Below, one piece after another: positions 3,043-33,899 of a DNA stretch of 35,730 nucleotides. The DNA comes from Ruminococcus sp. (GTDB taxonomy: Bacteria; Bacillota; Clostridia; Oscillospirales; Ruminococcaceae). The stretch's first letter is position 1, and every line of letters begins with the position of its first letter. The stretch spans positions 1-35,730 of the forward strand of contig JAFSSS010000010.1 of the NCBI GenBank assembly GCA_017450925.1, in the 5' to 3' direction. The notes under the pieces were generated by a model. That model was not told the DNA's origin and searched no databases. It saw only the letters and a list, made by a program, of their open reading frames with translations. A program made the position numbers and the translations under genes.

Positions 3043-3735
3043 TTACAGCTTATCCGGGTCTTCGGTCTTTCTGGAGCAGCTGATCTCAAGGTTCCCGTTG
3101 CGAGTACGCAGCTCGTCGATCATAGCCTTCTCCTGCTTGGGATCCTTCAAGCTTATCTCGTAGGTCAGACGGTAGAGGCTGCCCATGCCGGTGGTCTTGG
3201 ATGCGGTCAGCTCGGCGTGAGAGGTGTATTTCTCGAAGATGTCGTCAAAGATCTCGCTGTAGTCAAGGCTCTCGGGAATGGTGATGCCAAGAACCTTCAT
3301 GGTGTCTCTCGTGCTGCCAAGGGGCGAGAGGGTGTAAAGCAGCGCGACCACGCATACGACAGCGGTGAAAACTCCCGCCAGCACAAGCTGGTTCGTGCCT
3401 GTTGCAAGGCCTACAGCCATTGCAAGGAAGATGCCGCAGATGTCCTTGGCGTTGCCGGGAACGGAACGGAAGCGGACAAGACTGAATGCGCCCATTACCG
3501 CAACACCTGTTCCCACGTTGCCGTTTACCATCATGATGACCACCTGAACGATGATCGGAAGGATAGTCAGCGCAAGGATAAAGCCCTTGGACTTCTTCTG
3601 TTTAAAGCAGAAGGTAAAGCTTATTGCGATGCCCAGCAGCAGTGAGACCGCGCTGCAAAGGGCAAAGGTCTCGTTTGTGATCGTCAGAGACGAGGTAGTG
3701 GTGGTTTCGATAGTAGTAACTAAATTTTCAAGCAC
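3043..3735 (-). CDS. DUF4956 membrane protein
   Basis: 230-aa integral membrane protein of the DUF4956 family. Hydrophobic segments lie at about residues 28-46, 54-72, 78-90 and 104-135, followed by a soluble C-terminal domain (about 140-230). The conserved loop GAFSLVRFRSVPGNAKDI sits between membrane segments. The start is GTG at 3735, with AGGTGA 6 nt upstream; it overlaps the end of the VTC-domain gene by 8 nt, so the two are translationally coupled. DUF4956 proteins are repeatedly found beside VTC-domain polyphosphate-polymerase-like proteins, which suggests a membrane partner, but no reaction has been established. A hairpin follows the stop. Confidence 0.85.
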   Translation of the reverse strand: MLENLVTTIETTTTSSLTITNETFALCSAVSLLLGIAISFTFCFKQKKSKGFILALTILPIIVQVVIMMVNGNVGTGVAVMGAFSLVRFRSVPGNAKDICGIFLAMAVGLATGTNQLVLAGVFTAVVCVVALLYTLSPLGSTRDTMKVLGITIPESLDYSEIFDDIFEKYTSHAELTASKTTGMGSLYRLTYEISLKDPKQEKAMIDELRTRNGNLEISCSRKTEDPDKL

Positions 3736-4486
3736 AGTTGGTCACCTTTTCTTTCTTTTCGATATTCGTTTTCTTCTCGCCTGCGGCCGCCCGCCGTTCC
3801 TTTTCAAGGATCGTGTAGCAGGCGCCGTATTTTGAATAGGATGCGGGATAGATCTTCAGCTCGTCAAGTATGTGCGAGAGCCACATCGGCATTGCGTTGG
3901 TGATCTTGATCTCCATGATGCGTACTCCCTCGGGAAGAGCCTTTCTGCCGTAGGAGCCGTTCTCAAGCCGAAGATCGTCCTCGCGGAAGGTAAGGTTGCG
4001 GTCAAAGGTGACCCGCAGCTCCTTGTCCTCGTTGCCGAACATTGCGATCCTGTCGTAGCTTAGATACATTGCCGGAGCGATGCCCTTGTAGAATTTCAGA
4101 AAGTACATCAGCTCGTTCTCGATCTGCCTGTCGGGAGAGTTTATGCTCAAGCCCTTGTTGAAATCCCCGAACTGCTCCAGCTTCATTGATGTCCTCCGCT
4201 TATAGACCACGCTCTTGAACTTTTTCTTTATCTCCACAAAGAGCGTTCCGTCCTTGCCGGGGGTGCCGTAGCTCCGTACCCTTAGCTTTTCCTTGTAGAT
4301 CGGCTTTTCTATCGACCGCCTTACTATCAGATGCTCCGGCGTGTCGTAATAGATGTTGCAGATAGTGGTCTCGCCGTACTTATCCACGGTCATCAGCCCC
4401 TCAAGGCGCTCGCGCAGGGCATTGTACTGCGCCTCGTCCAGCAGATACTTTTTCTCTACCCGCTTGAACACTGCCTGATAAGCCAT
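3728..4486 (-). CDS. VTC-domain (polyphosphate-polymerase-like) protein
   Basis: 252-aa cytoplasmic protein of the VTC family, the tunnel-shaped triphosphate-binding fold of yeast Vtc4, which makes polyphosphate from ATP. Visible family features: an N-terminal RVEKKYLL strand (E and K ligands, about residues 10-17), basic KEKLRVRSYG (about 68-77), EIKKKFKSVVYKRR (about 88-101), and late acidic MEIKI. Polymerase activity is inferred from the family only. The start is the ATG at 4486 with GGGAG upstream. It is first in a two-gene operon with the DUF4956 gene and has a promoter carrying the same direct repeat as the neighbouring two-component operon, so phosphorylated response regulator probably activates it. 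Confidence 0.85.
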   Translation of the reverse strand: MAYQAVFKRVEKKYLLDEAQYNALRERLEGLMTVDKYGETTICNIYYDTPEHLIVRRSIEKPIYKEKLRVRSYGTPGKDGTLFVEIKKKFKSVVYKRRTSMKLEQFGDFNKGLSINSPDRQIENELMYFLKFYKGIAPAMYLSYDRIAMFGNEDKELRVTFDRNLTFREDDLRLENGSYGRKALPEGVRIMEIKITNAMPMWLSHILDELKIYPASYSKYGACYTILEKERRAAAGEKKTNIEKKEKVTNCA

Positions 4487-5904: not shown

Positions 5905-6582
5905 TTACTTCGCCTTATCCTCAAGGGAATAGCCAACGCCCCGGGTGGCCTTGATCTCAATGTCTGCACCGATCTGTGTCAGCTTTTTCCGCAGATAGGA
6001 GATATAGACCCACACCACGTTGATCTCGGCCTCGGAGTCGTAGCCCCAGATCTTCTCCATGAAGCGCTCTGTAGAGATAAGCTGCTTGCGGTTCATCATC
6101 ATCATTTCCAGCATTTGGAATTCCTTCGAGCTTAGCCGGATAGTCCCCTCCGGCCCGGTAAGGTCAAAGGTCTCACGGCTAAGAGTAACGCTGCCCATTT
6201 CCAGCAGGTTGGGAGCAAAATCCGCCTTGCGCCGCGTCATGGCGCGTATGCGTGCCAAAAGCTCGCCCATTGAAAAGGGCTTGGTGAGATAGTCGTCAGC
6301 ACCGGCATCAAGACCGCCTATCTTGTCATCGGTCTCGGACTTGGCTGTAAGGATCAGCACCGGAGAGCTTATCCCCTCGGCCCGGAGCCGCTTCAGCACC
6401 TCGATGCCGTTCATTTTCGGCATCATAACGTCAAGGATTATGCCGTCATAATCGCCTGTCCTGCCGTAGGCCCAAGCGTCAGCACCGTCATAGACGGCAT
6501 CCACCGAATAGTTGTTGTGTTTGAGTATCGCGCAGAGCGCGTTTGAAAGCTCGTGTTCGTCTTCTGCAAGTAAAAGTCTCAT
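5905..6582 (-). CDS. OmpR-family response regulator, CiaR-like
   Basis: 225-aa response regulator. The receiver domain (1-115) carries the acidic pair E7/D8, phospho-acceptor D51 in ILDVMMP and the conserved Lys in LTKPF. The winged-helix DNA-binding domain (about 125-222) ends in a RGVGYSLED wing. I moved the start to the ATG at 6582 because AAGGAGGT lies 7 nt upstream; the upstream in-frame codon at 6603 falls in the -10 of the promoter. The C-terminal part around WGYDSEAEINVVWVY resembles streptococcal CiaR, and CiaR-type boxes sit upstream of both this operon and the VTC operon, so autoregulation is likely (inference). Confidence 0.9.
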   Translation of the reverse strand: MRLLLAEDEHELSNALCAILKHNNYSVDAVYDGADAWAYGRTGDYDGIILDVMMPKMNGIEVLKRLRAEGISSPVLILTAKSETDDKIGGLDAGADDYLTKPFSMGELLARIRAMTRRKADFAPNLLEMGSVTLSRETFDLTGPEGTIRLSSKEFQMLEMMMMNRKQLISTERFMEKIWGYDSEAEINVVWVYISYLRKKLTQIGADIEIKATRGVGYSLEDKAK

Positions 6583-12977: not shown

Positions 12978-14120
12978 TTGGAAAATCAAAAGAAGAAAAA
13001 CAGAATATCCGACATGATAATGACGGCGGTGTTTTTGCTGTTTGTTTTCGGGTTTGCGGCGGCGCTGCTTATCGCAAAGGATAAGGATTTCTCCGAGACC
13101 GAGAACCGCACCCTCGCCCAAAAGCCGAAATTCGGCTGGGAGGAGATCAAAGAGGGACGCTTTACCGCTGGGCTGGAAAGCTATATCTCCGACCAGCTCT
13201 TTGCCAAGGATCAGCTTGTCACCCTAAAGACTGACCTCGACCGCCTGCTGGGTAAGTCGTATCAGAACGGAGTCTATCTGATAAAGGACGGCGGAAGGCT
13301 CCGCTATATCCAGCGCTATAAGGAGAACCGCTCCCAGCTCGAGGAGAATATCAAAAGCCTTAATGCCTTTGCCGAGGGACTGAATGTCCCGGCTGATCTG
13401 ATGCTGATACCCAACGCCTCGGCGTTTTATCTGGACAGCCTTCCCGCAGGAGCCGACTGCGACGACCAGCGGGAGAGCATCGAGTATGTCAGAGGCCTTG
13501 TCAGCGATAGGATCGGCTTTTATCCCATGACGGATGAACTGTCCGAGGTTTTGGACGCATACTATCTGACCGATCACCATTGGAACGACAGCGGCGCTTA
13601 TGCCGCCGTGAACAGCTATCTGCATCGGAGCGGCCAGCTGGCAGAGAATGTGCAGCTTACCTCCTACAGCAGCAGTTCGGCAAAGGACTTTTACGGCACG
13701 CTTTACTCCAAGGCTCCCACCGCTTTTGCCGATGCGGACGAGTTCAGATACGACGAACAGCTCTGCAGGGCAGAGACGGAATGGGTGAACGAGGGTAAAA
13801 AAACGGACAGCATCATCGACCTCTCCTACCTTGACCGCAAGGACAAATACGCAGCCTTCTTCGGTGGGAATTTCGCACAGATACGCATCCGCACCGGCCA
13901 CAGCGGCGGAAAGGTGCTGGTGCTGAAGGACAGCTACGCCAACGCGGCGATGCCCTTTCTGATGCAGCAGTACAGCGAGATCACGATGATCGACCTGCGC
14001 TACTACCATATGCAGGAAAAGACCGTTGCGGAGCTTTGCGAGGAGCAGGGCGCCGAGCGGGTGATAATGCTCTACAATCTCGATTTCCTCAACGAGGATC
14101 GGAATTTTGTTTGGCTTTGA
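12978..14120 (+). CDS. DHHW-family protein 3 (TTG start)
   Basis: 380-aa anchored DHHW protein: N-terminal membrane segment (about 10-30), the stalk motif SETENRTLAQKPKF, the D199-H-H-W202 motif in LTDHHWND and S319 in LKDSYAN. It starts at TTG, with GAAAGGA 7 nt upstream. Unlike paralogues 1 and 2, its base composition matches the neighbouring core genes, and its anchor sequence differs, so it is probably the older resident copy (inference). It lies 30 nt after paralogue 2, so co-transcription is likely. Confidence 0.85.
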   Translation: MENQKKKNRISDMIMTAVFLLFVFGFAAALLIAKDKDFSETENRTLAQKPKFGWEEIKEGRFTAGLESYISDQLFAKDQLVTLKTDLDRLLGKSYQNGVYLIKDGGRLRYIQRYKENRSQLEENIKSLNAFAEGLNVPADLMLIPNASAFYLDSLPAGADCDDQRESIEYVRGLVSDRIGFYPMTDELSEVLDAYYLTDHHWNDSGAYAAVNSYLHRSGQLAENVQLTSYSSSSAKDFYGTLYSKAPTAFADADEFRYDEQLCRAETEWVNEGKKTDSIIDLSYLDRKDKYAAFFGGNFAQIRIRTGHSGGKVLVLKDSYANAAMPFLMQQYSEITMIDLRYYHMQEKTVAELCEEQGAERVIMLYNLDFLNEDRNFVWL

Positions 14121-14132
14121 TCGGAGAAGGAT

Positions 14133-14462
14133 ATGTTCGGAAACAGACGCAATGCTGAACTCATCAGAAAAATGAAAAAGCAGGGCAGAACCGCCGTCGG
14201 CACAATTGTCTCCGTCACCGCCGTAAGCGATATTGAACAGTTGATCGGCATAAGGACCGGGACAGCTCGGCATCCTTATAATGTGGTGATAAGGTTCCGT
14301 ACTGAAGAGGGCAGGAACGAGCAGCTGACGATGCACACCTCCGACATCTCCTCCTATTCAGAGGGCTTTGAGGTGAATGTGAGATATTTCTATAAGAACG
14401 GAACTTGTCTGGCAGTGCTGGAGCTGCTGCTGGAAAAGCCGGATAAGCAGAGGTCAGAATGA
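14133..14462 (+). CDS. Small protein of unknown function, possibly DUF3592-like
   Basis: 109-aa protein without a membrane segment. A basic N-terminal helix (residues 1-19) is followed by a beta-rich region (GTIVSVTAVSD, YNVVIRFRTEEG, VNVRYFYKNG, LAVLEL) reminiscent of the short OB-like domain of DUF3592 proteins; this assignment is tentative. GGAG lies 6 nt before the ATG. It starts 13 nt after DHHW3 and its stop overlaps the dusB start by 4 nt, so it links the surface-polymer locus to the housekeeping genes in one apparent transcript. Confidence 0.65.
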   Translation: MFGNRRNAELIRKMKKQGRTAVGTIVSVTAVSDIEQLIGIRTGTARHPYNVVIRFRTEEGRNEQLTMHTSDISSYSEGFEVNVRYFYKNGTCLAVLELLLEKPDKQRSE

Positions 14463-15451
14463 TAGGATATGTTAAAATAGGGAATGTGAATATCGAGCGC
14501 ACGGCAGCTCTTGCACCTATGGCATCAGTGGCAGACAGCGCCTACCGCCTTATGTGCAGGGAGTTCGGAGCCGCCTATCTTGTCAGCGAGATGATCTCCG
14601 CCAAGGGCATGGTCTATGGTGACAAAAAGACCCCGGAGCTTTGCGCGATCGACCCGGCGGAGCGCCCTGCCGCTCTCCAGCTTTTCGGCGAGGAGGCCGT
14701 CTATGTGGGCAGGGCAGCCTATATGCTCAATGGGTACGCGCCCGATATCATCGACTTGAACATGGGCTGCCCGGTGCCTAAGATCGTGGGAAACGGCAGC
14801 GGCTCGGCGCTTATGAAGGACATTCCCCGTGCCGCCGATATCGTCCGCGAGACGGTAAAAAATGCCTTGTGTCCCGTCACCGTCAAGATGCGCATCGGCT
14901 GGGATGCGGAGCATATCAATGCGGTGGATTTCGCCAAGGCTATGGAGCAGGCAGGCGCCTCGGCTTTGACCGTTCACGGCAGAACGCGGATGCAGTTCTA
15001 TTCCGGCAAGGCCGACTGGGATGTGATACGGCAGGTCAAGGAGGCCGTCAGCATTCCCGTCATCGGCAACGGAGATGTTTTCAGCGCCAAGCAATGCGAG
15101 GATATGTATAATGCCACCGGCTGCGATCTGGTGATGATCGGACGGGGCAGCAACGGCAGACCATGGGTCTTTCAGCAGGTGCGGCACTACCTTGAAACAG
15201 GCGAGCTGCTGCCGGAGCCGGATGTGCAGCAGCGCATGAAGATCATGCTGAAGCACGCAGCGCTGGCCTGCAAATTCAAGGGCGAGCGGCAGGGCATCAA
15301 GGAGATGCGCCACAATTTCGCTTGGTACATCAAGGGGCTCCACGGTGCGGCAAAGCTGCGTGCCCGCTCCGGTGAGCTGAATACGCTCGACGATCTCCGC
15401 TTAGCCGCAGAGGAGATCATCGCTGCCAACAGGGGTGAGGAAAATGGGTAA
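14459..15451 (+). CDS. dusB: tRNA-dihydrouridine synthase
   Basis: 330-aa FMN-dependent tRNA-dihydrouridine synthase, reducing specific uridines of the tRNA D-arm with NADPH. Order: TIM barrel (1 to about 240) with ALAPMASVADSAYR, the catalytic Cys in LNMGCPVPK, the TVHGRTRMQFYSGKADW block, VIGNGDVFS and MIGRGSNGRPW (FMN-phosphate binding), then the helical C-terminal domain. The length and start (KIGNVNIERTAALAPM) are as usual for DusB. The ATG overlaps the preceding stop (ATGA), and the gene overlaps rsmI by 8 nt. Confidence 0.93.
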   Translation: MIGYVKIGNVNIERTAALAPMASVADSAYRLMCREFGAAYLVSEMISAKGMVYGDKKTPELCAIDPAERPAALQLFGEEAVYVGRAAYMLNGYAPDIIDLNMGCPVPKIVGNGSGSALMKDIPRAADIVRETVKNALCPVTVKMRIGWDAEHINAVDFAKAMEQAGASALTVHGRTRMQFYSGKADWDVIRQVKEAVSIPVIGNGDVFSAKQCEDMYNATGCDLVMIGRGSNGRPWVFQQVRHYLETGELLPEPDVQQRMKIMLKHAALACKFKGERQGIKEMRHNFAWYIKGLHGAAKLRARSGELNTLDDLRLAAEEIIAANRGEENG

Positions 15452-16274
15452 GCTGTATATCGTCGGAACGCCCATAGGCAATTTGGGCGACATGACCTAC
15501 CGTGCGGTGGAAACGCTGAAAAGCGTGGACTTTATCTGCGCCGAGGACACTCGCGTCACCACAAAGCTTATGAATCATTTTGAGATAAAAAAGCCCCTCG
15601 TGAGCTATTACGAGCATAACGCAAAGCAGGCCGGCGAGGTCGTCTGCCGCCGTATTTTAGCAGGGGAGACCGCCGCGATAGTCACCGACGCGGGGATGCC
15701 CTGCATCTCCGACCCCGGCGAGGAGCTGGTGAAGCTGTGCGCCGAAAAGGGCATCCCCGTGGAGGTCGTCCCGGGGCCTACGGCGGCAATGTCCGCAGTG
15801 GCAATAAGCGGGCTGGACACCTCGCGTTTTCAGTTCGAGGGCTTTCTTCCCGTGCCGAAAAAGCAGCGTCACGAGCGGCTTGCCAAGGCCAAGGACAGCA
15901 CCGCCACTCTTATCTTCTATGAGGCTCCCCACAAGCTGCTGAACACCCTTGAGGATATGCTGGATTTCTTCGGCGACAGGCACATTTCACTCTGCCGTGA
16001 GCTGACGAAGCTCCACGAGGAGGTCATCCGAACCACCCTTTCCGAGGCTGTGACATACTACCGCATGAACGCTCCGAAGGGAGAGTTCGTGCTGGTGATA
16101 GAGGGCGCCTCCGATGCAGGCCAGCCCGAGACGATCGAGGATGCCTTCGCACAGGTGAAGGCCCTTGTCGATAAGGGTATGCGGGGTGCTGATGCCTGCA
16201 GGCAGATAGCAGCCTCCACCGGCTTTTCAAAGGGCGAGCTTTATAATATGCTTATCAGCAAAAATACCATATAA
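15444..16274 (+). CDS. rsmI: 16S rRNA (cytidine1402-2'-O)-methyltransferase
   Basis: 276-aa SAM-dependent methyltransferase of the tetrapyrrole-methylase fold that methylates the 2'-OH of C1402 of 16S rRNA. Visible: LYIVGTPIGNLGDMTYRA at the N-terminus, CAEDTRVT, VTDAGMPCISDPG, VVPGPTAAMSA and FEGFLPVPKKQR, all family signatures. I use the ATG at 15444, 6 nt after AGGGGTG, instead of the GTG at 15435. The last codons and the stop (AAT ACC ATA TAA) lie inside the first palindrome of the 54-bp element at 16261-16314, so the protein's C-terminus is partly written by that element. Confidence 0.93.
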   Translation: MGKLYIVGTPIGNLGDMTYRAVETLKSVDFICAEDTRVTTKLMNHFEIKKPLVSYYEHNAKQAGEVVCRRILAGETAAIVTDAGMPCISDPGEELVKLCAEKGIPVEVVPGPTAAMSAVAISGLDTSRFQFEGFLPVPKKQRHERLAKAKDSTATLIFYEAPHKLLNTLEDMLDFFGDRHISLCRELTKLHEEVIRTTLSEAVTYYRMNAPKGEFVLVIEGASDAGQPETIEDAFAQVKALVDKGMRGADACRQIAASTGFSKGELYNMLISKNTI

Positions 16275-16314
16275 GGTATTTTATCAAAATAATAAATACC
16301 GTCTATGGTATTTT
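16261..16314. repeat. 54-bp twin-palindrome element, copy A (rsmI/rimI)
   Basis: Two palindromes: A1, AAAATACC-ATATAA-GGTATTTT (16261-16282), and A2, AAATACC-GTCTAT-GGTATTT (16294-16313). Their centres are 32 bp apart. A1 contains the rsmI stop codon; A2 ends 15 nt before the rimI start. Copies B (17485-17538) and C (18639-18692) have the same length and spacing but different 10-bp spacers. Confidence 0.8.
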
Positions 16315-16328
16315 ACACGGTGATATAT

Positions 16329-16769
16329 ATGTATGATATCAGAGATATGACGATCGACGACTGCGAGGCAGTTGCGGAAATAGACCGCAGCACCTTTTCA
16401 ACACCCTACTCTGTTGAGGGCTATCGGAAGGAATGCGAGGATCCGAAGGCTGTGACGCTGGTGGTGCTGTCAGAGGGGCAGATCATCGGCTACGCCAACC
16501 TTTGGAACATCGATGGCGATGTTACGCTCAACAATATAGCTGTCGCGCCCGGACATCGCTCAAAGGGTGCAGGTGCGCAGCTTATGGAGGCAATACTCCG
16601 CCGCTTCTCCGACTGCGGCTTTATCACGCTTGAGGTCAGAAGCTCCAACGAGCGGGCGATCGCCTTTTACAGAAGGTACGGTTTTGTGCAGGTCGGCCTG
16701 CGGCGGGATTTCTACGAAAAGCCCACCGAGGATGCCGTCCTTATGACGCGGCTGATGAACGGAGAGTGA
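16329..16769 (+). CDS. rimI: Ribosomal-protein-alanine N-acetyltransferase (GNAT)
   Basis: 146-aa GNAT acetyltransferase expected to acetylate the N-terminal Ala of ribosomal protein S18 with acetyl-CoA. The acetyl-CoA loop is RSKGAGAQL (about residues 78-86), preceded by NNIAVAPGH; the late motif LEVRSSNERAIAFYRRYGF is characteristic of RimI. I start at the ATG at 16329 because the in-frame upstream ATG (16305) is part of the A2 palindrome (ATGGTATTT), just as a spurious start precedes tsaD. The ribosome binding site (GGTGAT) is weak. The stop is 3 nt before the next gene. Confidence 0.88.
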   Translation: MYDIRDMTIDDCEAVAEIDRSTFSTPYSVEGYRKECEDPKAVTLVVLSEGQIIGYANLWNIDGDVTLNNIAVAPGHRSKGAGAQLMEAILRRFSDCGFITLEVRSSNERAIAFYRRYGFVQVGLRRDFYEKPTEDAVLMTRLMNGE

Positions 16770-16772
16770 GCA

Positions 16773-17486
16773 ATGCAGTACGATGATCTTACAGTTGAAA
16801 GGCTGCACGACGGCATCGAGATAGTGATCTCCACCGAGCATCGCTTCGGTACAGATGCCTTCCTGCTGGCGGATTTTGCCGCCCCGCGGCATAAGGATAC
16901 GGTCTGCGATCTCTGCACCGGCAGCGGCATAATCGCACTGCTGATGTATCAGAATTTTAAACCGAAGCACATAGATGCCGTCGAGATACAGCCGAAGGCT
17001 CACGAGCAGCTCAAGCTGTCCCTCCGGCGCTCCGAGATCACCGATATAACCCCGATCTTAGGCGATCTGAAGGACTACCGCCCCGAGAAGCCCATAGACG
17101 TTATCACCTGCAATCCGCCCTATAAGATAAGCGGAACAGGTGCAAAAAATGAAAGCGATGCCGTCACTATCGCAAGGCACGAGACCCTCTGTACGATCGA
17201 GGATGTCTGCGCCGCTGCGAAACGCGCTCTGCGCTTCGGCGGAAGGCTTTGCATCTGCAACAGACCCGAGCGCCTCTGCGATATTATGGTGGCGATGCGC
17301 TCAAACGGCATCGAGCCAAAGCGTGTGCGCTTTGTCAGCAAGACCCCCGAGACTGCTCCGTGGCTTGTGCTTGCAGAAGGCCGCAAGGGCGGAAATCCGT
17401 TCCTTACCGTTGAGCCGCAGTTATATACTGCCTCCCCCGACGGCGGGTTTTCCGATGAACTGAAAAAAATATACAGGCAGATATAA
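16773..17486 (+). CDS. tRNA1(Val) (adenine37-N6)-methyltransferase-like
   Basis: 237-aa SAM-dependent methyltransferase of the TrmN6/YfiC family. Order: VERLHDGIEIVIS and FGTDAFLLADFA at the N-terminus, SAM-binding DLCTGSGIIALLM (about 47-59), the acidic strand AVEIQPKAHEQL, and the catalytic TCNPPYKISG (about 111-120), the NPPY motif of N6-adenine methylases. Specificity for A37 of tRNA-Val is inferred from family. It follows rimI by 3 nt. The stop codon (17484-17486) runs into copy B of the 54-bp element. Finding this gene between rimI and tsaD is not the usual order for the t6A cluster. Confidence 0.85.
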   Translation: MQYDDLTVERLHDGIEIVISTEHRFGTDAFLLADFAAPRHKDTVCDLCTGSGIIALLMYQNFKPKHIDAVEIQPKAHEQLKLSLRRSEITDITPILGDLKDYRPEKPIDVITCNPPYKISGTGAKNESDAVTIARHETLCTIEDVCAAAKRALRFGGRLCICNRPERLCDIMVAMRSNGIEPKRVRFVSKTPETAPWLVLAEGRKGGNPFLTVEPQLYTASPDGGFSDELKKIYRQI

Positions 17487-17538
17487 AATACCATATACGG
17501 TATTTTATATGTATGCAAAATACCGTATATGGTATTTA
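17485..17538. repeat. 54-bp twin-palindrome element, copy B (trmN6-like/tsaD)
   Basis: B1 (17485-17506, AAAATACC-ATATAC-GGTATTTT) extends to perfect 12-bp arms at 17481-17492 and 17499-17510. B2 (17518-17537, AAATACC-GTATAT-GGTATTT) is the reverse complement of B1, so the whole element is also one large inverted repeat with a 10-bp spacer. Centres are 32 bp apart. It ends 15 nt before the tsaD ATG. Confidence 0.82.
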
Positions 17539-17552
17539 AAAAGAGAGGATAT

Positions 17553-18569
17553 ATGAAGATACTTGCTATTGAGTCCTCCTGCGACGAGACCGCTTGCGCT
17601 GTCGTCGAGGACGGTGTGAATGTTTTATCGAATATTGTGGCCACCCAGATCGCCGAGCATAGGCTTTACGGCGGCGTAGTGCCGGAAATAGCTTCCCGCA
17701 GGCACGCCGAAAGCATCTATCAAGTGGTCAGCTCGGCTCTTGACGAGGCCGGCTGCACCCTTGCGGATGTGGATGCTGTTGCCGTGACCTATGCTCCGGG
17801 GCTGATAGGCGCCCTGCTCGTGGGCATCAGCTTTGCAAAGGGACTGGCTCTTTCCGCTGGGAAGCCGCTGGTGCCTGTGCATCATATCGCCGGACATATC
17901 GCGGCGAATTATATCTCACATCCCGAGCTGAAGCCGCCCTATCTCTGTCTGGTCGTCAGCGGCGGACACTCTCACATCGTCGAGGTGCTTGACTATACCC
18001 GCTACCGCATGGTGGGACGTACTCACGACGACGCAGCAGGGGAGTGCTTCGACAAGGTCGCCCGCACCTTGGGATACGAATATCCCGGCGGAAAATTCAT
18101 CGACGAGGCCGCGAAAAAGGGCAACGCTGATGCGTATAAATTTCCTCACCCAAAGGTGGAGGGCTGCGAGTACGATTTCTCCTTTTCCGGCCTGAAAACT
18201 GCCGTGATAAATCTTGTTCACAACGCCGTGCAGAAGGGTCAAACTATTTGCGCAGAGGACGCAGCTGCGTCGTTTCAGCGTACTGTTTGCGAGATCCTCG
18301 TCGGCAGGACGGTCAAGGCCGCAAGGGATCTCGGCTATAAAACTATCGGTCTTGCAGGAGGCGTTTCGGCAAATTCCGGCGTGAGGAATGCACTGCAGAA
18401 GGCCTGCGATGACAACGGCTGGAGGCTTTATATGCCCGAGCTTAAATACTGCGGAGACAACGCCGCAATGATCGGCTGCCAAGGCTATTTTGACTACCTT
18501 GCAGGCAAGCGCGCCGACCAGTCACTCAACGGTATCGCGACCCTTTCCCTCGAAAAAATATCAGAGTGA
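17553..18569 (+). CDS. tsaD: tRNA N6-adenosine threonylcarbamoyltransferase
   Basis: 338-aa Kae1/Qri7/YgjD-type enzyme that transfers the threonylcarbamoyl group to A37 of ANN-decoding tRNAs (t6A), working with TsaB and TsaE. Signatures: MKILAIESSCDETA at the N-terminus, the metal-binding VHHIAGH (His pair near residue 111), VVSGGHSHIVE, the GGKFIDEAAKKG block, and AGGVSANSGVRNAL. I use the ATG at 17553 with GAGAGGAT just upstream; the upstream in-frame MVFKKRGY extension comes from palindrome B2. No tsaB or tsaE is seen in this window. Copies B and C of the twin palindrome flank the gene. Confidence 0.94.
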   Translation: MKILAIESSCDETACAVVEDGVNVLSNIVATQIAEHRLYGGVVPEIASRRHAESIYQVVSSALDEAGCTLADVDAVAVTYAPGLIGALLVGISFAKGLALSAGKPLVPVHHIAGHIAANYISHPELKPPYLCLVVSGGHSHIVEVLDYTRYRMVGRTHDDAAGECFDKVARTLGYEYPGGKFIDEAAKKGNADAYKFPHPKVEGCEYDFSFSGLKTAVINLVHNAVQKGQTICAEDAAASFQRTVCEILVGRTVKAARDLGYKTIGLAGGVSANSGVRNALQKACDDNGWRLYMPELKYCGDNAAMIGCQGYFDYLAGKRADQSLNGIATLSLEKISE

Positions 18570-18638
18570 TATCCAAATGTGTGTGCTGGCCGCGTACACA
18601 TTCTGTTCTTCGGGATGATACATATACTGCGGCGACGC

Positions 18639-18692
18639 AAAATACTACATAAGGTATTTTGCCAATTTAATAAATACCATATACGGTATTTT
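18639..18692. repeat. 54-bp twin-palindrome element, copy C (tsaD/polA)
   Basis: C1 (18639-18660, AAAATACT-ACATAA-GGTATTTT, one T/G mismatch in the arms) and C2 (18672-18691, AAATACC-ATATAC-GGTATTT), again with centres 32 bp apart. C2 ends immediately before the polA ribosome binding site GGAGGTG (18693-18699). The rest of the 136-nt gap (18570-18638) shows no feature. Confidence 0.8.
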
Positions 18693-18705
18693 GGAGGTGC
18701 TTGTA

Positions 18706-21249
18706 TTGAGATTACTTGCTATTGACGGCAACAGCATAATGAACCGTGCTTTTTACGGGATAAAGGTACTCACAAATTCAAAGGGGATACCCACAAATGC
18801 AGTTACCGGCTTCATGAATATTTATATGAAGGAGCTTTCCGAGGTAGCCCCCGACTGTGTCGCGGTGGCATTTGATCTGCGCGCTCCCACATTCCGTCAT
18901 AAGGCCAGTGCTGCCTATAAGGCCAACCGCAAGGGTATGCCCGAGGAGCTGGCACAGCAGATGCCGATCATCAAAAAGCTGCTCGGATATCTCGGCGTGA
19001 GGATAGTTGAGTGCGAGGGCTTTGAGGCCGATGACATTCTCGGAACCCTTTCAAAGGCCGCCTCCGACAGCGGCTGTGAGTGCTTTATCCTCACCGGCGA
19101 CCGTGACAGCTTTCAGCTTGTCTCCGACCGCGTGACCGTGCGTCTTGCGGGCACAAAGGAGACCAAGGTCTATACTCCCGCCCGCATCATGGAGGAATAC
19201 GGCGTTTCACCCCGGCAGATGATCGAGGTCAAGGCTCTTATGGGCGACACCTCGGACAACATTTCCGGCGTAAAGGGGATAGGCGAGAAAACCGCGCTCT
19301 CGCTTATACAGCAATGCGGCTCTGTTGATGAACTGTACAAAAAACTGGACGACATTTCTCTTGCGCCCTCTGTAAGGAAAAAGCTTTTCGAGGGTCATCA
19401 AGATGCTCTTGACAGCCGCTTTCTTGCCGAGATCTGCCTTACCGCTCCTATCGACACCGACATCAGCAGCTACGCTCCCGCCGAGCCGGATGCCGCAGCT
19501 GCAAAGGCACTGCTGGTCGAGCTGGAAATGCTCCGCCTGCTTGAGCGCTTGAAGCTCGGAGATGCCCCGGATGCGCCCTCTGCACCTGCCGAAAAGGCCA
19601 ATACCGCAAACCTGCCGAGCTTTCGCACCGCCCCGCTTGATGCCGATGCTCTTGCCAAGCTTGCCGCCGAGCCCAGCTGCTTTATATACGACGGCGCAGT
19701 GCTTTCCGTTGCCTGCGGAGATACTCTTTACCGTACTGATGATCTGAATATTGCTGTTTCATATTTTGATACAGACGGGGAGAAGCAGAGCTTCGAGGCT
19801 AAGGCGGCTCACAAGGCGGCTATGACTGCCGGCAAGCAGCTGCGCGGACTTGTCTTTGCCTGCGACCTTGCCGGCTATCTTCTGAATTCACAGGCGGGCG
19901 AATATACCCCCGAAAGCCTTGCGCTGACCTATCACGTCGCCTACCGCTCCGACATGGGCGAATATGCCGATATTGCCACACTTCCCGCTCTCTGCGTATG
20001 CCTGCGCTCACTTCTTGAGGGCGCGGATATGATGAAGCTTTTCAACGATATCGAGCTTCCGCTCTGCGAGGTGTTGGCTTCAATGGAGGTCTGCGGCGTC
20101 AAAGCCGATGCCGACGGCATCCGCGAGTTCGGAAAAGGCCTCGAGGGCGATATCTCCGAGCTTAGCAGGCGTATATACGAATACGCAGGCAGGGAGTTTA
20201 ATATTCTTTCACCCAAACAGCTCGGCACCGTCCTCTTCGAGGAGCTTGATCTCCCCGGCAAAAAGAAGACCAAGACCGGCTACTCCACCAATGCCGAGGT
20301 GCTGGAGGGCATTATCGACCGCCACCCGATCGTCCCGCTTATTTTGGAGTACCGCACCCTCACAAAGCTCCAATCCACATATGTCGAGGGGCTCCTCCGG
20401 GAGATAAGGGAGGACGGCCGCGTCCACAGCGTTTTCAAGCAGACCGAGACCCGCACGGGACGTATCTCCTCCGCCGAGCCGAATATGCAGAACATCCCCG
20501 TCCGCAAGGAGCTGGGACGGAATATGCGCAAGTTCTTCGTGGCAGAGGAGGGCTGTACCCTCGTGGATGCCGACTACAGCCAGATCGAGCTTCGCGTACT
20601 TGCCTCCGTGTGCGGCGACGAGAATATGCAGGCCGCCTTCAAGGAGGGCCGTGATATCCACCGCTCAACGGCCGCACAGGTCTTTGACCTCCCGGAGGAT
20701 TTCGTCACCCCCGAGATGCGCTCCGCCGCTAAGGCCGTAAACTTCGGCATAATCTACGGCATCGGTGCCTTCTCTCTTTCCAAGGATATCGGCGTTTCAG
20801 TCAACGAAGCGAAAAAGTATATACAGAATTATCTCGACAATTTCCCAAAAGTGTCCGAATTTATGGACAGAACTGTAGAGAGCGGCATTAGGAACGGCTA
20901 TGTTACCACTATCTTCGGAAGAAGAAGACTTATCCCCGAGCTTGCCTCAAAAAACAAGCAGATACAGGCCTTCGGCAAGCGTGCCGCAATGAATGCTCCC
21001 ATACAAGGTGCCGCCGCCGATATAATCAAGCTGGCTATGGTGGCGGTCTATCGCCGTCTGAAGGCCGAGCTTCCCGAGGCCAGACTTATCCTTCAAGTCC
21101 ATGACGAGCTTATCATCGAGTGCCCCGAAAAGCAGGCAGAGCAGGTCTCCGCTTTGCTCAAGGAGGAAATGGAAAACGCCGTACACCTCGCCGTCCCCAT
21201 GACGGCAGATGTCCACAGCGGAAAAAGCTGGTTCATTGCCAAGGGCTGA
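18706..21249 (+). CDS. polA: DNA polymerase I
   Basis: 847-aa family A DNA polymerase for Okazaki-fragment processing and repair. Order: 5'-3' exonuclease/flap domain (about 1-285; LLAIDGNSIMNRAF, FEADDILGTL, GDRDSFQLV, GDTSDNISGVKGIGEKTA), a Pro/Ala linker, a degenerate 3'-5' exonuclease-like domain (about 300-460) in which I see no DxE proofreading motif, and the polymerase domain with motif A VDADYSQIELRVL (about 620-632), motif B AAKAVNFGIIYG and motif C QVHDELIIE (H799-D800-E801). The TTG start at 18706 is set by GGAGGTG 6 nt upstream and by the canonical MRLLAIDGNS N-terminus. Loss of proofreading is common in Firmicutes PolA. Confidence 0.95.
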   Translation: MRLLAIDGNSIMNRAFYGIKVLTNSKGIPTNAVTGFMNIYMKELSEVAPDCVAVAFDLRAPTFRHKASAAYKANRKGMPEELAQQMPIIKKLLGYLGVRIVECEGFEADDILGTLSKAASDSGCECFILTGDRDSFQLVSDRVTVRLAGTKETKVYTPARIMEEYGVSPRQMIEVKALMGDTSDNISGVKGIGEKTALSLIQQCGSVDELYKKLDDISLAPSVRKKLFEGHQDALDSRFLAEICLTAPIDTDISSYAPAEPDAAAAKALLVELEMLRLLERLKLGDAPDAPSAPAEKANTANLPSFRTAPLDADALAKLAAEPSCFIYDGAVLSVACGDTLYRTDDLNIAVSYFDTDGEKQSFEAKAAHKAAMTAGKQLRGLVFACDLAGYLLNSQAGEYTPESLALTYHVAYRSDMGEYADIATLPALCVCLRSLLEGADMMKLFNDIELPLCEVLASMEVCGVKADADGIREFGKGLEGDISELSRRIYEYAGREFNILSPKQLGTVLFEELDLPGKKKTKTGYSTNAEVLEGIIDRHPIVPLILEYRTLTKLQSTYVEGLLREIREDGRVHSVFKQTETRTGRISSAEPNMQNIPVRKELGRNMRKFFVAEEGCTLVDADYSQIELRVLASVCGDENMQAAFKEGRDIHRSTAAQVFDLPEDFVTPEMRSAAKAVNFGIIYGIGAFSLSKDIGVSVNEAKKYIQNYLDNFPKVSEFMDRTVESGIRNGYVTTIFGRRRLIPELASKNKQIQAFGKRAAMNAPIQGAAADIIKLAMVAVYRRLKAELPEARLILQVHDELIIECPEKQAEQVSALLKEEMENAVHLAVPMTADVHSGKSWFIAKG

Positions 21250-21278
21250 CCCGATCTTATTTAGGCAGGTGAATGATT

Positions 21279-21980
21279 ATGCCTTTTGTTGAATTTAAAA
21301 ATGTGTATAAACGCTATAAAATGGGCGAGATCACCATAAGCGCCAGCGACGGTGTCACCTTCGGCATCGAAAAGGGCGAGTTCGTGGTCATCGTCGGAGC
21401 CTCCGGCGCCGGAAAGACTACTATCCTCAATATGCTCGGCGGAATGGATACCTGCGACGAGGGCGAGATCATTGTGGACGGCAAAAACATCGCCGCCTTT
21501 TCCCGCCGGGAGCTGACCGCCTATCGCCGCTATGATATCGGCTTTGTGTTCCAGTTCTATAACCTTGTGGGAAATCTTACCGCCAAAGAGAATGTTGAGC
21601 TGGCAGTCCAGATTACCAAGGATGCCGCCGACCCGCTGACAGTGCTTTCAGAGGTCGGCCTTGCGGACAGGACGAACAATTTCCCCTCGCAGCTTTCCGG
21701 CGGCGAACAGCAGAGAGTCTCTATCGCAAGAGCCCTTGCCAAAAATCCCAAGCTCCTGCTCTGCGACGAGCCTACCGGCGCACTTGATTACAATACCGGC
21801 AAGACTATCCTCAAGCTCCTGCAGGATACCTGCCGCCGCACCGGCATGACCGTCATCGTCATCACCCATAACTCCGCTATCGCTCCCATGGCTGACCGCA
21901 TCATCCGCATCAAAAACAGCCGCGTTGACAGCATCACCCTCAACCCCGAGCCCGCCGATGTTTCAACTATCGAGTGGTAG
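21279..21980 (+). CDS. ABC transporter ATP-binding protein, MacB/LolD type
   Basis: 233-aa ATPase subunit. Walker A is GASGAGKTT (40-48), the Q-loop lies in [13 protein letters not shown], the signature is [15 protein letters not shown], Walker B is [12 protein letters not shown] and the H-loop is VITHN. The sequence belongs with the MacB/LolD/FtsE-like group, whose permeases are FtsX-fold proteins, but no permease gene is adjacent: the next gene is a K+ channel. The ATG at 21279 fits AGGTGA 6 nt upstream better than the ATG at 21273. It starts 29 nt after polA. Possibly an orphan ATPase serving a permease encoded elsewhere. Confidence 0.9.
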
Positions 21981-33858: not shown

Positions 33859-33899
33859 AAAATTGCAGAAAAGGAATTTTCTTAGAGGAGGAAATATCA

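Follow-up and report, generated by a model that had tools for sequence, protein, structure and literature searches.

Three helically phased palindrome pairs in the rsmI-polA gene run of a Ruminococcus genome: probable operators for a dimer of dimers, with NrdR as a candidate regulator

Why does the same pair of palindromes stand in three gaps of a single run of housekeeping genes? This question is raised by a 35,730-nucleotide stretch of Ruminococcus sp. DNA (GenBank assembly GCA_017450925.1, contig JAFSSS010000010.1, positions 1 to 35,730; hereafter the window), in which such pairs are found before rimI, tsaD and polA (copies A, B and C; Table 1). In this paper we looked at these pairs and, based on sequence comparison, we suggest that each copy is probably a DNA operator for a dimer of dimers. 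An earlier note on this DNA had described six palindromes of the form AAATACC-N6-GGTATTT, arranged as three pairs with centers 32 bp apart, and a mismatch search of the window located all six with this spacing in each pair. Five of them are exact copies of AAATACCNNNNNNGGTATTT (starts 16262, 16294, 17486, 17518 and 18672), while the one at 18640 is AAATACTACATAAGGTATTT, with one mismatch to AAATACCNNNNNNGGTATTT; the earlier description needs a small correction here, as the first palindrome of copy C is imperfect. The two palindromes of copy B are, as was claimed, exact reverse complements of one another. Allowing up to 3 mismatches, AAATACCNNNNNNGGTATTT matches the window seven times, against a mean of 0.84 and a maximum of 4 in 100 dinucleotide shuffles, none of which reaches seven. 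The remaining match is a solitary 3-mismatch site at 33860 with no partner palindrome, and no other pair exists in the window, in line with the earlier note.

Outside the window the pairs are rare and their places are conserved. The own genome (2.03 Mb, 66.64% complete) contains exactly these three pairs at 32-bp spacing with up to 3 mismatches, and the reversed-pattern control yields none; for single palindromes with up to 2 mismatches, seven were found in the own genome besides the six, all with 2 mismatches, compared with eight for the reversed control. A first search of relatives covered 61 genomes at 32-bp spacing only, with up to 3 mismatches, and matched eight, all from the same genus as the window and with every match on the contig of the run. 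Because this search was fixed at 32 bp, pairs at 31 or 33 bp were missed. A TsaD search of 16 genus genomes gave a close orthologue in 14, and pairs are present at 11 of these 14 loci. With the window counted, the rimI gap and the tsaD gap each hold a pair in all 11 pair-bearing genomes (the rimI gap of genome G005 holds two), and the polA gap in eight, G003 and G008 having no pair and G005 a 19-bp form; in total 30 of the 33 gaps hold a pair. Insertion of a gene between rsmI and rimI (G003 and G008) or between tsaD and polA (G001 and G006) leaves the pair next to rimI and polA, respectively.

The earlier note considered the element specific to this gene run. This holds within the genus, where all pattern matches lie within the rsmI-polA run, and it fails at one place in the wider family, where a run-type pair was found elsewhere. 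This pair, in G395 (L251:8034-8080), is the sole run-type pair found outside the genus and lies where two convergent genes end, one of them large and membrane-protein-like, the other of the LysR type. A looser pattern matched 9 of 396 family genomes, namely seven of the eight sampled genus members and two others, and one of these two out-of-genus matches (G372) is directly upstream of nrdJ (family confirmed). In a class-wide pattern search the only match among 391 genomes was the own genome. A TsaD match was found in 118 of 119 family genomes; of the best 30 loci, which were used, two are of the genus, and in the scan 5' of tsaD at the other 28 loci, from 28 genomes of other genera, the top scores came from poor palindromes. 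Exact pairs were also found in two public records, one of Ruminococcus sp. from sheep rumen and one of an uncultured Clostridia bacterium.

What is kept in these pairs, and what is free to change? In a scan of 14 loci over 18-60 bp, 32 pairs from 11 genomes have their centers 31-33 bp apart, and the remaining rows are found at 25 bp (an overlap artefact in the locus of the window), at 55 bp (between neighboring G005 pairs) and at 19 bp (G005). The 31-bp spacing occurs in G003, G008 and single pairs of G001 and G013, and the 33-bp spacing in G009 and one pair of G005. In G005 (L242, in run orientation) two successive 32-bp pairs stand before rimI, at 3612-3746, and the 19-bp palindromes are at about 6090-6137. 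For tabulation, 31 pairs (62 boxes, 124 half-sites) were hand-placed from the scans, excluding the G005 19-bp palindromes and a degenerate extra G001 pair. In this set the between-species identity of the spacers is 0.39, 0.36 and 0.35 in the three gaps and that of the flanks 0.26 to 0.41; box identity is 0.77 to 0.87, with 0.99, 0.99 and 0.94 for the outer arms (positions 1-4 and 13-16), figures that are inflated because the arms served to recognize the pairs. C4 and G13, which are 9 bp apart, are present in 124 of 124 half-sites, again in pairs found by their arms, and A8/T9 in 120. The preferences at the center are two-fold symmetric (Y7/R10, A8/T9, and C6 almost absent), which is also seen in a separate table of 56 rows, 2 of them shifted duplicates in L083. 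Of the 124 half-sites, 120 have A at position 0 and 103 have it at position -1. The earlier observation of constant spacing with a variable spacer thus extends to the genus, with 31-33 bp kept and spacers that are nearly random (0.35-0.39 identical). Since palindromes and spacing were kept while the DNA between them drifted, recent copying of a mobile unit is excluded, and the paired palindromes appear to be held in place by selection.

Such a pair could act as DNA or as RNA. About three helical turns (31-33 bp) is the spacing required by two dimers on one helix face, and this phasing, together with the near-random spacers, supports the dimer-of-dimers operator that the earlier note had offered. 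Its other proposal, alternative mRNA hairpins, can be generalized to an RNA element, in which tandem hairpins, or one long hairpin of box 1 with box 2, close to the ribosome binding site (RBS) act on translation or mRNA stability. The location of the pairs would fit, as a Shine-Dalgarno-like (SD-like) tetramer is found 1-9 bases 3' of box 2 in 27 of the 31 pairs, the exceptions being the first of the two G005 pairs, the tsaD pairs of G003 and G008, and the G001 polA pair (23 bases). The copy B transcript can also form a 21-bp hairpin of -25.1 kcal/mol, and copy B on the minus strand is one of 10 terminator-like sites scored in 14300-18900 (shuffle mean 3.8). However, the half-sites change independently of one another. 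Pair 5/12 is C-G in 40 of 62 boxes, compared with 40.3 expected under independent half-sites, and the 22 other boxes comprise 17 mismatches, 4 wobbles and a single compensatory change, while positions 1-4 show no compensated change once the shifted duplicates are excluded. A selected long hairpin is unsupported, because the complementarity between the centers of box 1 and box 2 is lower than that of randomly matched boxes (4.77 of 8 compared with 5.11 permuted; 0.994 of 5000 permutations reach the observed value). Folding energies spread from -25.1 to -4.9, no Rfam family reaches its gathering score within 14000-21500, and the two-fold preferences at positions 7, 8 and 6 have no cause in a hairpin stem or loop. 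An RNA element is thus improbable. With half-sites that vary independently and box-box complementarity below the permuted mean, the element looks like an operator in the DNA to which a dimer of dimers would bind.

Small twin palindromes are also typical of REPIN elements and miniature inverted-repeat transposable elements (MITEs), and a very small mobile element was the main alternative in the earlier note. Here a tiny repeated element would have spread to three gene boundaries and would now be functionless. Its absence from three genus genomes, with rsmI and rimI overlapping in two of them (G004 and G011), agrees with this, as do the rsmI stop codon provided by copy A, as an insertion would, and the tyrosine-recombinase-like gene about 2 kb from the lone run-type pair of G395. 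Yet only three copies exist, they occupy identical gaps in 11 genomes, and their boxes resemble each other while the spacers are close to random. Where a MITE or REPIN is expected in many dispersed copies, present or absent at orthologous sites, we found three pairs at fixed places without spread over the genome, shared by 11 genomes and missing from three. Judged by the checks that the earlier note had set (hundreds of copies, variable spacing and no conservation), the searches speak against a MITE. We reject the MITE reading on copy number and fixed places and consider a functionless mobile element highly improbable; a mobile origin followed by co-option as an operator is possible.

Several observations weigh against the operator reading itself. 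Three of the 14 genus genomes (G004, G010 and G011) have no pairs, G003 and G008 lack the polA pair and have their tsaD pairs 32 and 58 bases from an SD-like tetramer, and in the polA gap of G005 the two palindromes are only 19 bp apart. The conservation of the boxes is partly built in by finding pairs through their arms, which leaves the places of the pairs and the spacers unaffected. Promoter-like matches number two, both weak and touching a copy, compared with a shuffle mean of 3.1.

Which regulator could bind such pairs? The best single candidate from sequence is NrdR, the repressor of ribonucleotide reductase (RNR) genes, to which the earlier note had not linked the geometry. We propose it tentatively and give about equal weight to a different regulator with the same architecture. 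In S. coelicolor the conserved G-C pairs of an NrdR site are separated by 9 bp inside a box and by 31 bp from box to box; the bound DNA is kinked at AT, and two boxes about three turns apart are bridged by a single tetramer (PMC9110341). A second study, on the NrdRs of four species, reports the best binding when 15-17 bp separate the boxes, and places the boxes of a pair 14-17 (or 24-27) bp apart, in whole helical turns (PMC12051234). As in these NrdR sites, there are two palindromes per site with centers 31-33 bp apart (15-17 bp between 16-bp boxes), and C and G stand 9 bp apart around an AT center, as in the NrdR-DNA structure (PMC9110341). The 32 pairs of the 18-60 bp scan all fall within the spacing range quoted from the second study, the 19-bp centers of G005 being the exception. 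The nrdJ-upstream pair of G372 shares the outer ATAC/GTAT. Each of the 16 genus genomes has one match to NrdR (TIGR00244), 15 of them above cut-off and one a contig-end fragment, and all 16, the fragment included, retain D15, R17 and the arginine run.

Matrices of RNR boxes were used for a quantitative comparison. For training, pairs 5' of nrdJ and nrdD were taken from genomes outside the genus, the boxes being picked from RNR upstream regions by a consensus (acaCwAtATaTwGtgt). The first matrix has 31 pairs from a scan of 67 loci, after low-scoring, oddly spaced and all genus rows were dropped, and includes the G372 pair, which had been found via the run-derived pattern; in the second this pair is left out and one other pair swapped. 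With the first matrix the three window pairs rank 1-3 at 31-33 bp (25.1, 24.3 and 18.4; the next scores 10.0), and the maximum of 60 Markov windows is 13.6; with the second they score 23.9, 22.9 and 16.7, and the next 10.2. The top pair belongs to the run in each of 10 pair-bearing neighborhoods, and in three pairless neighborhoods the best score is 11.0. The run pairs, at 8.9 to 25.9, overlap with 10 genus nrdD pairs at 23.0 to 35.3 (10 of 12 genus rows used) and are generally lower. Half-sites agree with the RNR boxes at 6 of 8 positions. A covariance model, R1, was built from 33 RNR pairs, out of 55 out-of-genus loci, at a score of at least 25; its A+T-rich spacer makes it a weak model. Of 389 candidates in the own genome 150 were scored. 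The best is a partial A+T-rich match of 17.4 bits, copies B and C are second and third (16.8 and 15.4 bits, E 0.019 and 0.053), and neither copy A nor the own nrdD appears among the matches listed; in the window alone copies B, C and A are the best three places. An indirect hint toward an NrdR link comes from E. coli, in which NrdR overexpression is reported to lower PolA, though not by demonstrated direct binding (PMC4898720).

The nrdD promoters of the genus offer the closest comparison. Their core is TTGACA-17-TATACT and their boxes are spaced by 32 bp. In the own genome these boxes (ATACTATATACTTGTA and CCACAAGATGTTGTGG; 32 bp) share with the element the genus, the spacing and, in box 1, the left half ATACNATATAC. 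They differ in that the -10 hexamer lies in box 1, the CC/GG step is absent from both boxes, and the two boxes are unlike each other. In the own genome a second box pair (L076:2848-2895, C53) lies some 480 bp 5' of the nrdD promoter pair, and similar distal pairs occur in several relatives.

Against NrdR stand both the sequence and the location of the pairs. At position 5, which is A or T in RNR boxes, 100 of 124 half-sites carry C; at position 6, which is A in RNR boxes, 79 of 124 carry G or T. The element thus differs from NrdR boxes by C5/G12 in place of A/T and by a position 6 that is not A, in addition to its longer AA/TT flanks. The published NrdR-box expression, C.[AT].A[AT].[AT].G, which allows any base at 5 and requires A/T at 6 and 11 (PMC12051234), matches 21 of 62 boxes, 2 of 31 pairs and no window pair; it is a strict test, as the genus nrdD promoter pairs also fail it (in the upstream regions, with no start found at 4 of 29 loci). 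The likeness of the half-sites is modest, as a fraction of 0.015 of 40320 column orders score equally well. The same palindromes in a shifted register score up to 19.8 (25 bp) and 18.0 (39 bp), above or near the 18.4 of copy A. At tsaD loci of other genera the best run-matrix score is 18.8 (L215) and the best RNR-matrix score 19.9 (L217), and another non-run pair reaches 18.4 (L245, second there); copy A alone, at 16.7-18.4, is not distinctive because of such non-run pairs. While an NrdR site is expected upstream of an RNR operon and over its promoter, the element stands before rimI, tsaD and polA within a gene run and not over an RNR promoter of the TTGACA-TATACT type. Because positions 5 and 6 deviate, the published expression is not matched and the permutation test is suggestive only, we do not file the element under NrdR boxes and describe it instead as an NrdR-like paired operator. 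Residue 2 of NrdR (R or K) was considered as a correlate of box presence and rejected, since G006 has boxes and K2.

These differences would be explained by a dimer-of-dimers repressor of another family, for example TetR-like, with the same three-turn geometry and with the run as nearly its whole regulon, a reading to which we attach the same tentative weight as to NrdR. The systematic C5/G12, the free position 6 and the poor fit to the published expression favor it, as does the A at positions 0 and -1, because the RNR consensus has such A/T on inner flanks only. The specificity of the genus NrdR, moreover, should not have shifted, as D15, R17 and the arginine run look canonical. On the other hand, no regulator gene was seen to accompany the run (of 101 open reading frames of at least 90 codons that match none of the window genes compared, 0 recur in more than 3 of 13 neighborhoods), no further pair that could be an autoregulatory site was found in the 16 genus genomes at 32-bp spacing with up to 3 mismatches, and the agreement with RNR boxes at six of eight half-site positions, together with the same phasing, would be a coincidence. 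Operators of the BlaI/MecI type also consist of paired dyads in helical phase that are bound by two repressor dimers; they share the two phased dyads with our element and differ in dyad sequence.

From the sites as they are found, their places in 11 genomes, their phasing and their dyad symmetry we infer protein binding, repression and the kind of regulator, and a possible mode of action can be suggested. Each copy would be a two-dyad operator that takes one dimer per palindrome on the same helix face, about three turns apart, and the three operators would stand in series within a co-directional run, usually against the RBS of rimI, tsaD and polA. The bound regulator would most likely lower downstream expression, either by blocking the path of RNA polymerase (a roadblock) or by closing an internal promoter. 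If the run is transcribed as a unit, the strongest effect would fall on polA, which lies downstream of all three sites. Since the pairs mostly touch an RBS and the promoter matches are within chance, action on an elongating polymerase or on an unfamiliar internal promoter is suggested, in contrast to the genus nrdD, where the -10 hexamer is inside box 1. As NrdR is a tetrameric ATP/dATP sensor, its binding could couple this translation and replication run to the deoxynucleotide pool; at high dATP, rimI and tsaD would then be lowered, as would polA, which has three sites in front of it. Still more tentative is the full picture of a wiring specific to the genus, in which a tetrameric nucleotide-sensing repressor (NrdR or a regulator of NrdR geometry) would use three in-series operators of a single design, most of them at an RBS, to throttle tsaD (tRNA modification), rimI (ribosomal protein acetylation) and polA (DNA polymerase I) jointly, by roadblock and not at a promoter.

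Operators made of two helically phased dyads are a known kind; what is new is a set of three matched copies within a single housekeeping run, found in one genus. In open-licence papers we found no report joining NrdR and tsaD, and no motif with both arms. If the binder is NrdR, the RNR repressor would directly control replication and translation genes and its box would tolerate a CC/GG step, which changes the prediction of NrdR sites; if it is not, another regulator has reached the same three-turn, two-dyad design. Either way, the three matched operators would form a natural series for asking whether a bound dimer of dimers acts as an intra-operon roadblock.

Table 1. Palindrome pairs and surrounding genes in the window
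Feature	Position	Strand	Remark
Copy A, rsmI-rimI gap	16262..16313	none	dyads A1 16262-16281 and A2 16294-16313, centers 32 bp apart
Copy B, TrmN6-like-tsaD gap	17486..17537	none	dyads B1 17486-17505 and B2 17518-17537, 32 bp apart
Copy C, tsaD-polA gap	18640..18691	none	dyads C1 18640-18659 (one mismatch) and C2 18672-18691, 32 bp apart
rsmI, 16S rRNA cytidine-1402 2'-O-methyltransferase	15435..16274	+	TIGR00096 above cut-off
rimI, downstream of copy A	16329..16769	+	TIGR01575 above cut-off
TrmN6/PrmC-like methyltransferase	16773..17486	+	family scores below cut-off
tsaD, downstream of copy B	17553..18569	+	TIGR03723 above cut-off
polA, downstream of copy C	18706..21249	+	NF004397 and TIGR00593 above cut-off

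The gene names were assigned by NCBIfam profiles with family cut-offs, and DusB, RsmI, RimI, TsaD and PolA are above them. The gene that the earlier note called trmN6 is TrmN/PrmC-like, with both family scores (54.3 and 58 bits) under the cut-off, and no pair was found directly 5' of it in the window or in the pair-bearing neighborhoods fetched; in L240 this gene is masked by the picking of open reading frames. The starts given for rimI (16329) and for polA (a TTG, 18706) are our choice, the mechanical reading frames beginning at 16305 and 18691. The order rsmI-rimI-(TrmN6-like)-tsaD-polA is the common frame of 13 fetched neighborhoods and is interrupted in some. The last codons of rsmI extend into copy A with their TAA stop inside dyad A1, and because the stop falls in the first palindrome, the putative operator doubles as the end of a coding sequence; a stop (TAA or TGA) at this place is seen in the window (16262-16274) and in several relatives. 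Copy C abuts the RBS of polA, and between it and the tsaD stop there is a terminator-like hairpin of 11 pairs (18576-18602).

Some further observations concern the anaerobic reductase and other box pairs. The long NrdD match of the genus stops at about profile position 550-559, and the C-terminal glycyl-radical stretch (552-581, ...RRITGYLVGT) is found on separate frames of about 90-118 codons, with small C-terminal matches in 12 of 16 genus genomes (e.g., L199:1612-1881 in G008); from sequence, NrdD in this genus looks like a split anaerobic reductase. NrdR-like box pairs are found near these short frames in some genomes. In six genus genomes (L183, L184, L187, L188, L189 and L200) a 32-bp pair with an NrdR-like score is directly upstream of a pyruvate-formate-lyase-like start. 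The L183 protein matches formate C-acetyltransferase over 1-483 of 744, below the full-length cut-off, as the locus end cuts it, and the likeness of the other five was judged by eye. Four viral contigs (L033-L036) each contain two AATACC-N6-GGTATT palindromes 39 bp apart.

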